Assembly: GCA_026398235.1 (NCBI GenBank)
Contig: JAPLTE010000020.1
Coordinates: forward strand, 1-48,025
Length of the DNA: 48,025 nt
Reading direction: 5' to 3'
Source: Verrucomicrobiota bacterium
Lineage (GTDB): Bacteria; Verrucomicrobiota; Verrucomicrobiia; Chthoniobacterales; Chthoniobacteraceae
In this document: piece by piece, positions 24,552 to 41,151 of the stretch
How the letters are laid out: each line of letters starts with the position of its first letter
How positions within the stretch are numbered: position 1 is the stretch's first letter
Position numbers and translations under genes: made by a program
The notes under the pieces: generated by a model
Seen by the model: the letters and a program-made list of their open reading frames with translations, nothing else
What the model was told of the DNA's origin: nothing
Database searches by the model: none

Positions 24552-24830
24552 ATGGGAAGATCACTAAAAAAAGGGCCGTTCGTTGAGCTTCATCTGCTCG
24601 AAAAAATCGACAAGATGGCAGCCGCCGGAGTCAAGAAGCCGATCAAAACCTGGTCGCGCCGCTCGATGATCACGCCGGATTTTGTTGGGCACACGTTCCT
24701 TGTGCATAACGGAAAAATTTTTAACTCGGTGTTTGTGACGGAGAATATGGTGGGTCACAAACTCGGCGAATTTTCGCCGACCCGCGTGTTTAAGAAACAC
24801 GGGGCGCACACCGCGAAGGTGACGAAGTAA
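24552..24830 (+). CDS. rpsS: 30S ribosomal protein S19
   Basis: S19 pairs with S13 in the 30S head. It has 92 residues: [57 protein letters not shown] and [16 protein letters not shown]. It starts 3 nt after rplB. In almost all bacteria rplV follows; here an unrelated exported coiled-coil gene begins 3 nt after the stop. Confidence 0.97.
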
Positions 24831-24833
24831 TTT

Positions 24834-25622
24834 ATGCTGCGTCCTGCTTTAACGGCAGGCGTGGTGATCCTGGCGCTCACAAATGGGTGGGCTGCCACGG
24901 GGGGTGGTTCTTTCTCAGATTCAGACATAGAAGTTTCGGAAGCGAAAGTGACGCTTCAGACAGTGGTCGCCGAGAACGAAGTTCTCAAGCGGCAACTGGC
25001 CGAAGCGCAGGGAGCGATCCAATCGCTCACTGACAGTCTCGCCGTGTCCAACAGCGAGGCGGAAGTTTTCCGGAGGGAGGCGGCAGAGCTCAAGCTGCGC
25101 ATGACGGCGCTCGGAGTCGATGGACTCAGCGGCGACAAGAGCAAGCTCGAGCAGCGACTCCTTAAGGCGGTCCGCGATCTCCAGCTCGTCCAAGGCGAGA
25201 AGGACAAGCTGGCCGACGAATTGGTGCAACTCAGCGAGGCGGTTTTACGCTACACAAAAGGAGCGACAACCGAGGATGCCGAGGCGCGGATGGCGTTGGA
25301 AGCGCGGTTGCGCAGTGTGGCGGAAGCGCTCGGAATCCCGGGGAACGGGGCCGAGAGCAAAGCGTCCGCACCGGCAGGCAGCCTGACCGACGGGATGGTG
25401 GTAAGCATCAAAGAGGAACTTTCCCTGGTGGTGGCCAATGTAGGCAGCCGACAGGGGGTGCGCGTGGGAATGCCGTTCAAGGTCGTGCGGGAGGATCATT
25501 TGATCGGAACCGTGCGGGTGGTGGACGTGCGGGAGAAAATTTGCGGGGCCGTGATTCAAAGTCTGGATTCAGAGAAGAATAAAATAAAAGTGGGTGACCG
25601 CCTGATGGTGGATGCCCGGTGA
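24834..25622 (+). CDS. Exported coiled-coil protein inserted in the S10 section
   Basis: Function unknown. The 262-residue protein has a signal peptide (MLRPALTAGVVILALTNGWA, likely cut before ATGGG), a long coiled coil at about 35-160 with heptads rich in Leu, Glu and Lys, a Pro/Ala/Ser linker near 165-185, and a C-terminal beta-rich domain (GMVVSIKEELSLVVANVGSR through CGAVIQSLDSEKNKIKVGDR). The last part, with pattern G-x-R-x-G-V-x-V-G-M, resembles the SH3-like or MreC/FlgT-type C-terminal barrels; that is only a hint. It lies 3 nt after rpsS and 12 nt before rplV, on the same strand, so it must be co-transcribed with ribosomal genes. Base and codon use look like its neighbours. Confidence 0.88.
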   Translation: MLRPALTAGVVILALTNGWAATGGGSFSDSDIEVSEAKVTLQTVVAENEVLKRQLAEAQGAIQSLTDSLAVSNSEAEVFRREAAELKLRMTALGVDGLSGDKSKLEQRLLKAVRDLQLVQGEKDKLADELVQLSEAVLRYTKGATTEDAEARMALEARLRSVAEALGIPGNGAESKASAPAGSLTDGMVVSIKEELSLVVANVGSRQGVRVGMPFKVVREDHLIGTVRVVDVREKICGAVIQSLDSEKNKIKVGDRLMVDAR

Positions 25623-25634
25623 AATTTAACTAAC

Positions 25635-26051
25635 ATGCAGATCCTATCGACAACCAAATATGCGCACATCTCGGCCTTCAAAGCCCGGGAAGTGGCGCGT
25701 GAAATTCAGGGCTTGCCCGTCGCGGCGGCGCTCGACCTCGTCGCGTTCAGTCCGAAGAAGGCAGCGGCCCTGATCGCCAAGACGCTCAAGAGCGCGATCG
25801 CCAACGCAGAGAACAACAACAACCTGCGTGCGGAAAGCCTTGTCGTCAAAGAAGCAAGGATCGGCGAAGGCCCCACGGCCAAACGCTTCCAACCGAAGGC
25901 GCGCGGCAGTGCCGGACCCATCCTCAAACGCTCGTCGCACATCCGCATTGTGCTGACCGACGAGGTGGAAGTGGCCCAGCGCGAAGTCCGCAAAAAGACC
26001 GCCCCAAAAGCGGCAACCAAGTCAACCAAGGCCGCCAAGGCCGCCAAATAA
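25635..26051 (+). CDS. rplV: 50S ribosomal protein L22
   Basis: L22 lines the exit tunnel beside L4. The 138-residue protein has [51 protein letters not shown], the loop [20 protein letters not shown] and [17 protein letters not shown]. Beyond the usual 110 residues it has a Lys/Ala-rich tail ([19 protein letters not shown]). Its leader, AATTTAACTAAC, has no Shine-Dalgarno. Confidence 0.97.
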
Positions 26052-31334: not shown

Positions 31335-32840
31335 ATGATCTCCGCCTTCACCAACACATTTAAGATTCCGGAACTCCGGAATCGGGTGCTTTTCACATTG
31401 TTGCTTCTGGTGGTGGTCCGCCTCGGTGCGGCGATCACCTGTCCCGGGGTCGACGCCTCCGTGCTTCACGAGTGGTTTAACCACGAGGCCAAGCAGTCGG
31501 CGGGCGGCAGCAGTTTCGCGGCGCTCTTTAATCTGTTCAGCGGCGGAGCGATGGAGAATTGCGCGATCTTTTCGTTGGGCGTCATGCCCTACATTAGCGC
31601 GTCGATCATGATGCAGTTGCTGACGGCGGTCATCCCGCAGTTGGCGAAACTCTCCAAGGAAGACGGTGGACGGCAGAAGATCATGCAGTACACCCGCTAC
31701 GCGACCATCGCCCTTTGTGCGGGCCAGGGTTACGCGCTGGCAATGACTTTTCAGAACCCCAGCGCCAACCCGTTCCTTCCCGGCATCGCCGACACGATCG
31801 CCCGGCTCGGACGGCATTTGGTGGTCAATGAAGGGTTCGGATTTGTCGTCCCCGCCGTGGTGGCACTCACCGCCGGGACGATGCTCCTGATGTGGATCGG
31901 CGACCAGATCACCGAACGCGGAATCGGCAACGGGATGTCCTTGATCATTACGATCGGCATCGTGGCGCGCCTGCCCGCAGGGTTGATCCAGGTGTGGCGC
32001 ACCTTTATCCCCACCGAAGGCCACAACGTGCAGCCGATGACGCTGGTGGCAATGATCGCCTTCTTCGTATTCGTGGTGGCCGCGGTCATCTGCGTCACCC
32101 AGGCGCAGCGCAAGATCGCCGTGCAATACGCCAAGCGCGTGGTGGGCCGCAAGCAGACCGGCGGCGGCACGCAATATATGCCTTTGAAAGTGAACTACGC
32201 GGGTGTGATGCCGATCATCTTCGGCCAGGCGCTCCTGATGTTCCCTTCTCAGATCGCCCAGATCCCGTTCCTCAAACAATATGACTGGGTGCAGCGGATC
32301 GCGGCGAGCCTCGTGGACGGACCGGTGCATTACACCGTTTATGCGGCGATGATTTTCTTCTTCAGCTACTTCTGGGTGGCGACGCAGTTCCAGCCCCAGC
32401 AGATCGCCGAGGATCTCAAGAAATACGGCGGCTATATCCCTGGCGTTCGCCCGGGCAAGCCGACAGCCGACTACCTCGACTTTGCCATGACCCGCCTCAC
32501 GTTTGCCGGCGCGGTGTTCCTGACGATCATCGCGATTCTGCCGCAGATGCTCACCCGTTCCCTCGGGGTTCCCTATATGGCGGCCTCGTTCTTCGGCGGC
32601 ACCAGCTTGCTGATCATGGTCGGCGTCGTGCTCGACACGATGCGCCAGATCGAAACGCACCTCATCCAGCGCCATTACGACGGGTTCCTGCGCAAGGGCC
32701 GCCTGCGTGGCCGCTTCGAACGCACCCCCTCCGGCCTTGGTGAGGCAGTGCAGCAGGGCGCGCTGGTTTGGCCGTTTGTCGCTGTCGCCGCCTTGGTGCT
32801 CATCGCCGTGGTGCTCTTCCTGGCGCGCGGGTATCACTAG
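31335..32840 (+). CDS. secY: Protein translocase subunit SecY
   Basis: Channel of the Sec translocon in the inner membrane. The 501-residue protein has ten membrane segments: the first near 20-35 (NRVLFTLLLLVVVRLGAAI), the plug/TM2 region NLFSGGAMENCAIFSLGVMP with YISASIMMQLL, SKEDGGRQKIMQYTRYATI, WIGDQITERGIGNGMSLIIT, the cytosolic loop QRKIAVQYAKRVVGRKQTGG, YMPLKVNYAGVMPIIFGQAL, and the C5 loop GGYIPGVRPGKPT. It is longer than the usual 430-440, mainly through the first periplasmic loop, a longer loop near 150-170 and others. The stop overlaps the adk GTG (TAGTG). Confidence 0.96.
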   Translation: MISAFTNTFKIPELRNRVLFTLLLLVVVRLGAAITCPGVDASVLHEWFNHEAKQSAGGSSFAALFNLFSGGAMENCAIFSLGVMPYISASIMMQLLTAVIPQLAKLSKEDGGRQKIMQYTRYATIALCAGQGYALAMTFQNPSANPFLPGIADTIARLGRHLVVNEGFGFVVPAVVALTAGTMLLMWIGDQITERGIGNGMSLIITIGIVARLPAGLIQVWRTFIPTEGHNVQPMTLVAMIAFFVFVVAAVICVTQAQRKIAVQYAKRVVGRKQTGGGTQYMPLKVNYAGVMPIIFGQALLMFPSQIAQIPFLKQYDWVQRIAASLVDGPVHYTVYAAMIFFFSYFWVATQFQPQQIAEDLKKYGGYIPGVRPGKPTADYLDFAMTRLTFAGAVFLTIIAILPQMLTRSLGVPYMAASFFGGTSLLIMVGVVLDTMRQIETHLIQRHYDGFLRKGRLRGRFERTPSGLGEAVQQGALVWPFVAVAALVLIAVVLFLARGYH

Positions 32841-38966: not shown

Positions 38967-40022
38967 ATGAAATTCATCGAGACCGTTTTCTCGAAACTGC
39001 AACGCCACCCGAAACGCATCGTTTTCCCCGAAGGAACGGAGCCGCGTGTCTTGCACGCTGCTGCTGAGATGGTGAAGCTCAAAATCGCGGCCCCCATCCT
39101 GCTCGGCAACGTCGAGGAAATCGAGCGGATTGCCCTGGCGGAAGGGGTCAACCTGGCGCGGGTTGGTTTGATCGACCCCGCGACCGGCAGCGACCTGCCG
39201 ATGTTCTGCCAATGGCTCACCCGGCTCCAGCGCTATCGCAATCTCGGGCCGGGCGAGGCGGAAGGGTTCCTCACCAACCCGAACTACTTCGCCGCGATGA
39301 TGATCCAGCACGGCCAGGCCGACGGATTGGTCGGTGGCGTAAGCGGCTTTGCCGGTTCGCTTTTGCGCCCGCTCTTCCAGCTCGTCAAGCCGCTGCCGGA
39401 CGTCTCCTTTATTTCCAGTTGCATGGTGATGGCATTGGATGATCCCCAATTCGGTGAAAGCGGCGTGCTGTTTTTTGCGGATTGCGCCGTCATTCCCGAA
39501 CCGACCGTGCCACAACTCGCGCAGATCGGCGTCCAGGCGGGCAAGCTCTGCGCCCAACTCACAGGAGTTCGGCCACGTGTGGCGTTCCTGAGCTTTTCCA
39601 CCAAGGGCAGCTCCAAACATGCTTCGGCAGAGAAAATGAACGCCGCGACCGCGCAGGCACGCAAAGCGGCGGAAAGCGCCGAAATGGACATGGAGATCGA
39701 CGGCGAATTGCAGGCCGACACGGCGCTTCTCCCTCATCTCGCCAAGGTCAAGGCACCGAGCAGCCTTGTGGCGGGCCAGGCGAATGTGTTGATTTTCCCG
39801 GACCTCAACAGCGGCAATATCGCCGCCAAACTCGTCGAGCATCTGGCGGGAGCCGAAGCCTACGGGCAGATTTTGTTGGGCCTTTCCAAACCGTGCGCCG
39901 ATCTCTCCCGCGGCGCGACCGTCGAGACGATCGTCGGGGCCGCGGCGATCGTGGGGCTGCAAGCCATCGCCTATCGCAGCCTTTATCCACCGGACGGATC
40001 GGACGATCAACCGGAAATTTGA
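38967..40022 (+). CDS. pta: Phosphate acetyltransferase, catalytic half only
   Basis: Converts acetyl-CoA and phosphate to acetyl phosphate and CoA. The 351-residue protein is the PTA_PTB catalytic domain: QRHPKRIVFPEGTEPRVLHA, FLTNPNYFAAMMIQHGQADG, LVGGVSGFAGSLLRPLFQLV, FADCAVIPEPTVPQLAQIGV, RVAFLSFSTKGSSKHASAEK, EIDGELQADTALLPHLAKVK, ANVLIFPDLNSGNIAAKLVE and SRGATVETIVGAAAIVGLQA. Long Pta enzymes such as that of E. coli carry an N-terminal BioD-like/DRTGG part; here that part is the next gene. No ackA is in the window. Confidence 0.93.
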   Translation: MKFIETVFSKLQRHPKRIVFPEGTEPRVLHAAAEMVKLKIAAPILLGNVEEIERIALAEGVNLARVGLIDPATGSDLPMFCQWLTRLQRYRNLGPGEAEGFLTNPNYFAAMMIQHGQADGLVGGVSGFAGSLLRPLFQLVKPLPDVSFISSCMVMALDDPQFGESGVLFFADCAVIPEPTVPQLAQIGVQAGKLCAQLTGVRPRVAFLSFSTKGSSKHASAEKMNAATAQARKAAESAEMDMEIDGELQADTALLPHLAKVKAPSSLVAGQANVLIFPDLNSGNIAAKLVEHLAGAEAYGQILLGLSKPCADLSRGATVETIVGAAAIVGLQAIAYRSLYPPDGSDDQPEI

Positions 40023-40032
40023 GCGCAATCCC

Positions 40033-41151
40033 GTGAACACCGTCACCCCTCGACTCTTCATCGCTGCGACCCAGCAAAACGACGGCAAAACAACCTCCGC
40101 CCTCGGGTTGTTTTCCGTGCTCAAAAAACGGGTGGGGCGCATTGGATTCATCAAGCCGGTGGGCCAGCGTTTTGAAGAGGTGGACGGCAAACGCATTGAT
40201 GAGGACACGGTGCTGATCGACCGGACGTTTGGCGTGCAGACGCCGATTGAGGACATGAGTCCCATCGCGATCGAGCCGGATTTCACCCGCCGCTACATCG
40301 ATAACGCCAACAACGATCATCTTGTGCGGCGGCTGCAACATTCCTTTGACCGCGCCTGTTGGGAAAAAGAGTTCTGCATCATTGAAGGCTCGGGGCACGC
40401 GGGGGTCGGCTCCGTGTTTGACCTTTCCAACGCAAGGGTGGCCAAGTTGCTCGGCAGCAAGGCGCTGCTTGTCACCAAGGGAGGCATCGGCAAGCCCATC
40501 GACGAAGTCGCCCTCAACAAGGCGCTCTTCGACAAGGAGGGCGTCGAACTGGTTGGGGTGATCATCAATAAAATTCACCCGGAGAAATACGACTTCGTAA
40601 AAGACTTTTGCCAGCGCGGCCTTGCCCGGCTCGGCATCGAGCTTCTCGGCGCCATGCCCGACGAGCCAATCCTCTCCAATCCCACGCTCAACGAAGTCTG
40701 CAAACAGGTGCGCGGACGCTTTGTCAATTCCCGCTCCGAAGCCCATCGCAAGGTCGAGCGCAGCATCATCGGCGCGATGAATTCGAGCCATGTCATGGAG
40801 CAATTCACGCCGGGCACGCTGGTCGTCACCCCTGGCGACCGCGAGGACATCATCCTGGCCGCCCTCTCCACGGTGGCCCTCATGGAGCCCAAAACCAAAG
40901 GGCTCACCGGCCTGGTCCTTTCCGGCGACATGCTGCCGCACCCGACCGTGCTCAACCTGATCGCGCAGTCTGCTCTGCCGGTGATCGCCAGCCCGATGGA
41001 CAGCTATTCGGTGGCGAACGCGATCCACACGATGACCATCAAAACGTTGCCGGGCGATTTCGAAAAAATCCACCGCATCCAGGAGATGGTGGAAGAATAC
41101 GTCAACGTGGATCGGGTGATTGAAAAAATCGGGCTGCCGGAAAAAGTCTGA
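40033..41151 (+). CDS. BioD-like P-loop and DRTGG-domain protein (regulatory half of Pta)
   Basis: The 372-residue protein matches the non-catalytic part of long phosphotransacetylases. Residues 1-210 form a dethiobiotin synthetase-like P-loop domain (LFIAATQQNDGKTTSALGLF, GFIKPVGQRF, FCIIEGSGHAGVGSVFDLSN, ALLVTKGGIGKPIDEVALNK, VGVIINKIHPEKYD). Residues 215-330 form a DRTGG domain (AMPDEPILSNPTLNEV, FTPGTLVVTPGDREDIILAA, GLVLSGDMLPHPTVLNLI). It starts with GTG at 40033, 10 nt after pta. The order is opposite to that in the fused enzyme. I infer that it regulates Pta; an independent nucleotide-dependent role is possible. Confidence 0.88.
   Translation: MNTVTPRLFIAATQQNDGKTTSALGLFSVLKKRVGRIGFIKPVGQRFEEVDGKRIDEDTVLIDRTFGVQTPIEDMSPIAIEPDFTRRYIDNANNDHLVRRLQHSFDRACWEKEFCIIEGSGHAGVGSVFDLSNARVAKLLGSKALLVTKGGIGKPIDEVALNKALFDKEGVELVGVIINKIHPEKYDFVKDFCQRGLARLGIELLGAMPDEPILSNPTLNEVCKQVRGRFVNSRSEAHRKVERSIIGAMNSSHVMEQFTPGTLVVTPGDREDIILAALSTVALMEPKTKGLTGLVLSGDMLPHPTVLNLIAQSALPVIASPMDSYSVANAIHTMTIKTLPGDFEKIHRIQEMVEEYVNVDRVIEKIGLPEKV

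Follow-up and report, generated by a model that had tools for sequence, protein, structure and literature searches.

Few gene neighbourhoods in bacteria are as stable as the junction between rpsS and rplV, which encode ribosomal proteins S19 and L22. Why, then, should the gene for an exported protein lie inside it? In the window (the whole stretch of 48,025 nucleotides analysed here, from a Chthoniobacteraceae (Spartobacteria) genome), an otherwise standard S10-spc run reads fusA, rpsJ, rplC, rplD, rplW, rplB, rpsS, X, rplV, rpsC, rplP and onwards to secY, where X is our label for a protein of 262 residues encoded at 24834-25622 on the plus strand, from an ATG start. Upstream, rpsS (24552-24830, plus strand) ends 3 nt before X; downstream, rplV (25635-26051, plus strand) begins after a gap of 12 nt, and secY (31335-32840, plus strand; Pfam SecY E=2.6e-108) follows in the same ribosomal gene run. 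The first-pass annotation had described an exported coiled-coil ORF at this place, and we found all of its parts: the ORF itself, the gaps of 3 and 12 nt, a hydrophobic N-terminus, the helices and a beta domain. Elsewhere in the window, at 38967-41151, a phosphate acetyltransferase gene is followed by a separate gene for an AAA_26/DRTGG protein.

X is more than a chance ORF. Against six relatives its dN/dS is 0.12-0.19 (Nei-Gojobori), which indicates a real gene under purifying selection, and its homologues occupy the equivalent slot in other genomes. The gene is also present in the cultured Chthoniobacter flavus Ellin428. Our preferred reading, to which we give a probability of roughly 0.55, is that X is an ancestral S10 operon component of Verrucomicrobiota, acting as a growth-coupled envelope adaptor in the periplasm or at the inner membrane. 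The location and the fold of X are well supported by sequence and by structure prediction; the adaptor role and the growth coupling are our inference.

A homologue was found in 44 of the 57 first relatives, and at all 30 loci fetched from these it sat between rpsS and rplV. Several relatives that gave no match carried a diverged version of 160-180 residues in the same slot; in others rpsS adjoined rplV or was followed by a gap with no ORF, and some assemblies had no rpsS. The slot was likewise filled in most families of the wider samples (78 rpsS loci from across the class and 53 more from across the phylum), other classes included. Altogether, 139 of the 179 genomes sampled have X at rplV, spread over 57 of 78 families in the phylum; these counts are not unbiased frequencies, as genomes were picked to span genera and both matches and non-matches were included. 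This is a syntenic position in or beside the S10 operon across lineages, which answers the question, raised by the first-pass annotation, of whether the position is conserved in Verrucomicrobiota or confined to one strain. A single narrow-pattern scan over all genomes led to close relatives, and as far as sampled X is specific to one phylum.

The gene also stays with rplV where the operon has come apart: in genomes with rpsS and rplV at separate places, X lies directly upstream of rplV in 21 of 23. Families in which the operon is split after rpsS are f59, f64, f69, f70, f75, f81, f83, f84, f85, f91 and f98 (loci L236-L312, other classes), and in split-operon families X mostly heads the part that contains rplV, the break falling upstream of X and not between X and rplV. 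X is absent from about 20 sampled families, some of them free-living lineages with genomes of 4-7 Mb, and is therefore not indispensable to the phylum. Two reduced, single-contig genomes of 900 kb (L044 and L045, family f7) have rpsS-rplV spacers of 148 and 313 nt with no convincing ORF, possibly what is left of a decayed X; G143, a larger genome from their genus, retains an X-like ORF in the slot.

To follow the inheritance of X, we compared it with its ribosomal neighbours. Among 106 homologues, distances between the C-terminal domains follow those of rpsS+rplV (Mantel r 0.64, 0/999 permutations). The presence of X is clustered on the rpsS+rplV tree: presence and absence take 15 changes, whereas shuffled labels need about 44 (label long) or about 34 (label none). 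Distant homologues elsewhere in the genomes fall into one separate clade (support 93), and hence the slot genes and the rplV-linked genes form one family. The simplest history that these sequences suggest begins with a single ancestral insertion upstream of rplV and continues with vertical descent and repeated loss. Since X is widespread at rplV and is retained beside it in split operons, it is an ancestral passenger of the S10 operon that was later lost in those roughly 20 families. This vertical inheritance is also the reason to agree with the earlier statement that X is not a mobile element.

Given the short gaps on both sides of X and the lack of a promoter between the genes, co-transcription with the S10 genes is strongly indicated, and X is likely carried on the S10 mRNA together with rpsS and rplV. 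The first-pass annotation went further in holding that the output of X must be tied to ribosome synthesis. A promoter scan in and near X gave promoter-like matches at chance level, none of them separating X from the cluster. Terminator-like matches were somewhat above those in shuffled sequences and mostly on the minus strand; the sole plus-strand match is weak and lies inside X, at 24894-24908. The gene hence shows no sign of the promoter and terminator of its own that, according to the first-pass annotation, would have set it apart from the cluster. That annotation had also held that X matches its neighbours in style, which is not fully so. Measured against the ribosomal set, X has a codon adaptation of 0.53; all 20 neighbouring cluster genes score higher (0.58-0.76), and two non-ribosomal ORFs in the window have much the same value as X (0.51-0.53). 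Because of this lower codon adaptation, the protein is probably made well below ribosomal-protein levels from the shared message; with the lowest value in the cluster, a high abundance of X becomes less credible.

The main rival to our reading holds that X is an ordinary constitutive envelope protein. Its gene would have entered the S10 operon in the ancestor of the phylum and stayed because rearranging this operon is costly, its position carrying no regulatory meaning and any coupling to growth being incidental and unnecessary for what the protein does. The weak codon adaptation of X fits this, as do the repeated clean losses in many families, which restore rpsS-rplV adjacency (gaps 0-43 nt) and are not obviously tied to lifestyle. 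However, X has stayed beside rplV where the operon has split, with the breaks upstream of X, and this argues against a gene that is merely locked in place. A further point against it is that we recognised no displaced gene of the X clade: the distant homologues that we looked at in other parts of 12 genomes fall within the paralogue clade, and to take matches elsewhere in genomes without X as a displaced X is likewise unsupported. We regard this rival as possible, if on the doubtful side.

What kind of protein is X? Its N-terminal hydrophobic segment (residues 1-20; 24834-24893, plus strand as for all features of X) reads MLRPALTAGVVILALTNGWA|A, with cleavage probable after GWA. Of the 106 homologues, 100 have such a segment, be it a cleavable signal, an uncleaved anchor or a lipobox-like form; several of the six homologues without one resemble start-codon misassignments. 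Then follows the first long helix of a coiled coil (residues 29-92; 24918-25109), predicted by AF2 with a pLDDT of about 81-87 over residues 41-90. It leads into a conserved helix-turn-helix tip (residues 85-114, ELKLRMTALG..GDKSKLEQRLLKAV; 25086-25175; alignments A1 and A2), where residues A92, L93, G94, L105, E106, R108, L109, L110, A112 and V113 are invariant or nearly so in alignment A1 and G94 is still at least 90% conserved in the class-wide alignment A2. In the AF2 model, second and third helices (residues 102-143 and 149-166; 25137-25331) are joined by a flexible linker (residues 167-182; 25332-25379; pLDDT <50 over most of it) to a six-stranded C-terminal beta domain (residues 183-262; 25380-25619), the conserved core of the protein. 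Modelled in isolation, these 80 residues reach a pLDDT of 94 and a pTM of 0.82.

Across the phylum, the N-terminal export or anchor segment and the 80-residue beta domain are constant, whereas the coiled coil varies. Short forms of 108-130 residues, found in families f21, f42, f46, f48, f51 and part of f24, have lost the coil and consist of the export segment and the beta domain alone; they are homologous to X by profile comparison (probability 98.4, E 5e-15). Other members have gained long low-complexity linkers rich in Pro, Ala and Lys behind the signal, of a kind that envelope-spanning proteins often have. As short forms drop the coil and some members gain linkers, the beta domain appears to be the core of the protein and the coil an adjustable part. 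The version at L176:483-2156 (minus strand) is 558 residues long, with a low-complexity Pro/Ala/Lys-rich stretch of about 300 residues between signal and coil.

The full protein matched no Pfam or NCBIfam family above cut-off, and hence there is no clear assignment to a known family; such an assignment, to a family with an unrelated role, is what the first-pass annotation would have taken as its refutation. A PDB profile search gave chance coiled-coil matches only. With Foldseek, FlgT came first for the C-terminal domain, rotary-ATPase N-terminal barrels and MreC were also among the top matches (all with modest E-values), and the early guess of an MreC/FlgT-like barrel was therefore a good one. 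The best structural match is the C-terminal domain of FlgT from the Vibrio flagellar T-ring (PF16538; PDB 8z5n and 3w1e, probability 1.00, query TM 0.73-0.74, E only 2e-3 to 6e-3). We also compared 57 isolated beta domains with Pfam; 29 gave a weak match to FlgT_C at E up to 0.1 (best E 1.1e-6), and nine to MreC. X itself stays below the FlgT_C gathering score, both in full (E 0.1) and as the isolated domain (19.6 bits against a cut-off of 27).

Could X then be a diverged MreC or FlgT, at work in cell shape or in the flagellum? FlgT is, like X, a periplasmic protein from a family that bears a signal peptide. However, X is encoded in a ribosomal operon and lacks two of the three FlgT domains, the N-terminal and the middle one, in whose place it has a coiled coil (the model predicts helices over residues 29-166). 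By these missing domains and a profile score below cut-off, X is not FlgT. MreC (PF04085) shares the whole layout of N-terminal membrane or signal segment, coiled coil and C-terminal beta barrel (2j5u, query TM 0.54), but X has a single small beta domain against an MreC core of 147 positions, and the MreC core profile scores it at 14.5 bits with a cut-off of 28. The window's genome encodes a separate, true MreC (G000:C37, E 6.7e-40). MreC went undetected in 12 of 12 sampled genomes of genus g33 (family f15), all of which keep X as far as sampled, while families f20, f28 and f36 have MreC and no X. X is therefore neither the genome's MreC nor a companion of the mre system, and a diverged MreC or FlgT seems a very improbable identity for it. 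That X does not track MreC also counts against the envelope-adaptor explanation that we favour.

The remaining proposal, that export of nascent X acts in cis, as in SecM, to tune translation of the downstream ribosomal genes and secY to Sec capacity, would suit an exported ORF upstream of a gene run that includes secY, with tight gaps and a link to its downstream and not its upstream partner, but we hold it to be highly unlikely. What is conserved at the C-terminus is predicted to fold as a beta domain and is not an arrest peptide (no conserved arrest sequence lies outside this domain, the end of X being the last predicted strand, variable in sequence). In addition, the X-rplV gap ranges from 0 to >100 nt across genomes, no Rfam element was found in the window, and the gene is freely lost.

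Other known systems resemble X in part. The N-terminal crown barrels of rotary ATPases (F1/V1 and FliI/EscN type) have a small beta-barrel topology as in X (query TM 0.65-0.72); X, however, has no ATPase domain and is exported, not cytoplasmic. Non-ribosomal genes of the S10/spc/alpha cluster (secY, infA, map, adk and rpoA) are, like X, carried on a ribosomal-protein operon, but these are nearly universal, whereas X belongs to one phylum as sampled, is exported and interrupts the rpsS-rplV junction. X is not itself a ribosomal protein; it has no ribosomal profile match, and nearly all homologues bear the export or anchor segment. The PVC signature protein (CT421.2 in Chlamydia) is also lineage-marking, from the same superphylum and of function not known, and is set apart from X by its description as a different hypothetical protein common to Chlamydiae and Planctomycetes (PMC3444138). 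Within the library searched, we found no relevant account of the gene or of an insertion between rpsS and rplV, in keeping with the first-pass annotation, which knew of no described case.

How might a growth-coupled envelope adaptor work? X would be transcribed as part of the S10 mRNA, translated at a lower level than the ribosomal proteins, and exported or anchored by its N-terminus, facing the periplasm. Where present, the coiled coil may oligomerise X and span distance, and the small FlgT-C/MreC-like beta domain may serve for docking to an envelope complex. Placement in the S10 operon would make the amount of adaptor follow the growth rate. The first-pass annotation had likewise suggested a possible link between envelope building and growth rate, or else a periplasmic scaffold. 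A bolder form of this proposal is that a dedicated envelope adaptor has been wired into the ribosomal operon throughout the phylum, with ribosome production directly setting the capacity for envelope assembly. We consider this bolder form tentative, but if true, it would mean that the envelope is controlled by growth rate, with the FlgT-C/MreC-like domain acting as the effector unit. We know of no such control described in other bacteria.

An exported protein fixed between rpsS and rplV across a phylum, and held beside rplV despite operon breaks, is a marker of the Verrucomicrobiota. It also points to a conserved, undescribed envelope factor in cultivable members, through which a link between growth rate and envelope building becomes directly testable. 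For Verrucomicrobium spinosum, a saturated transposon map is reported to exist (PMC12283558), where the slot could be inspected provided that this species carries X.

The paralogues have the overall architecture of X, being N-anchored coiled-coil proteins with the same C-terminal domain. They differ in forming a separate clade with scattered neighbourhoods and in occurring also in lineages without X; the neighbourhoods examined were uninformative as to function. In the window's genome, the second protein with an X-type beta domain is encoded at L314:3914-4816 (minus strand), beside a DUF4912 protein. The loci L317:3878-5514 and L318:3322-4910 hold tandem paralogues that share the N-terminal anchor, coiled coil and beta domain; those at L317 lie near dnaX and a YbaB-family gene.
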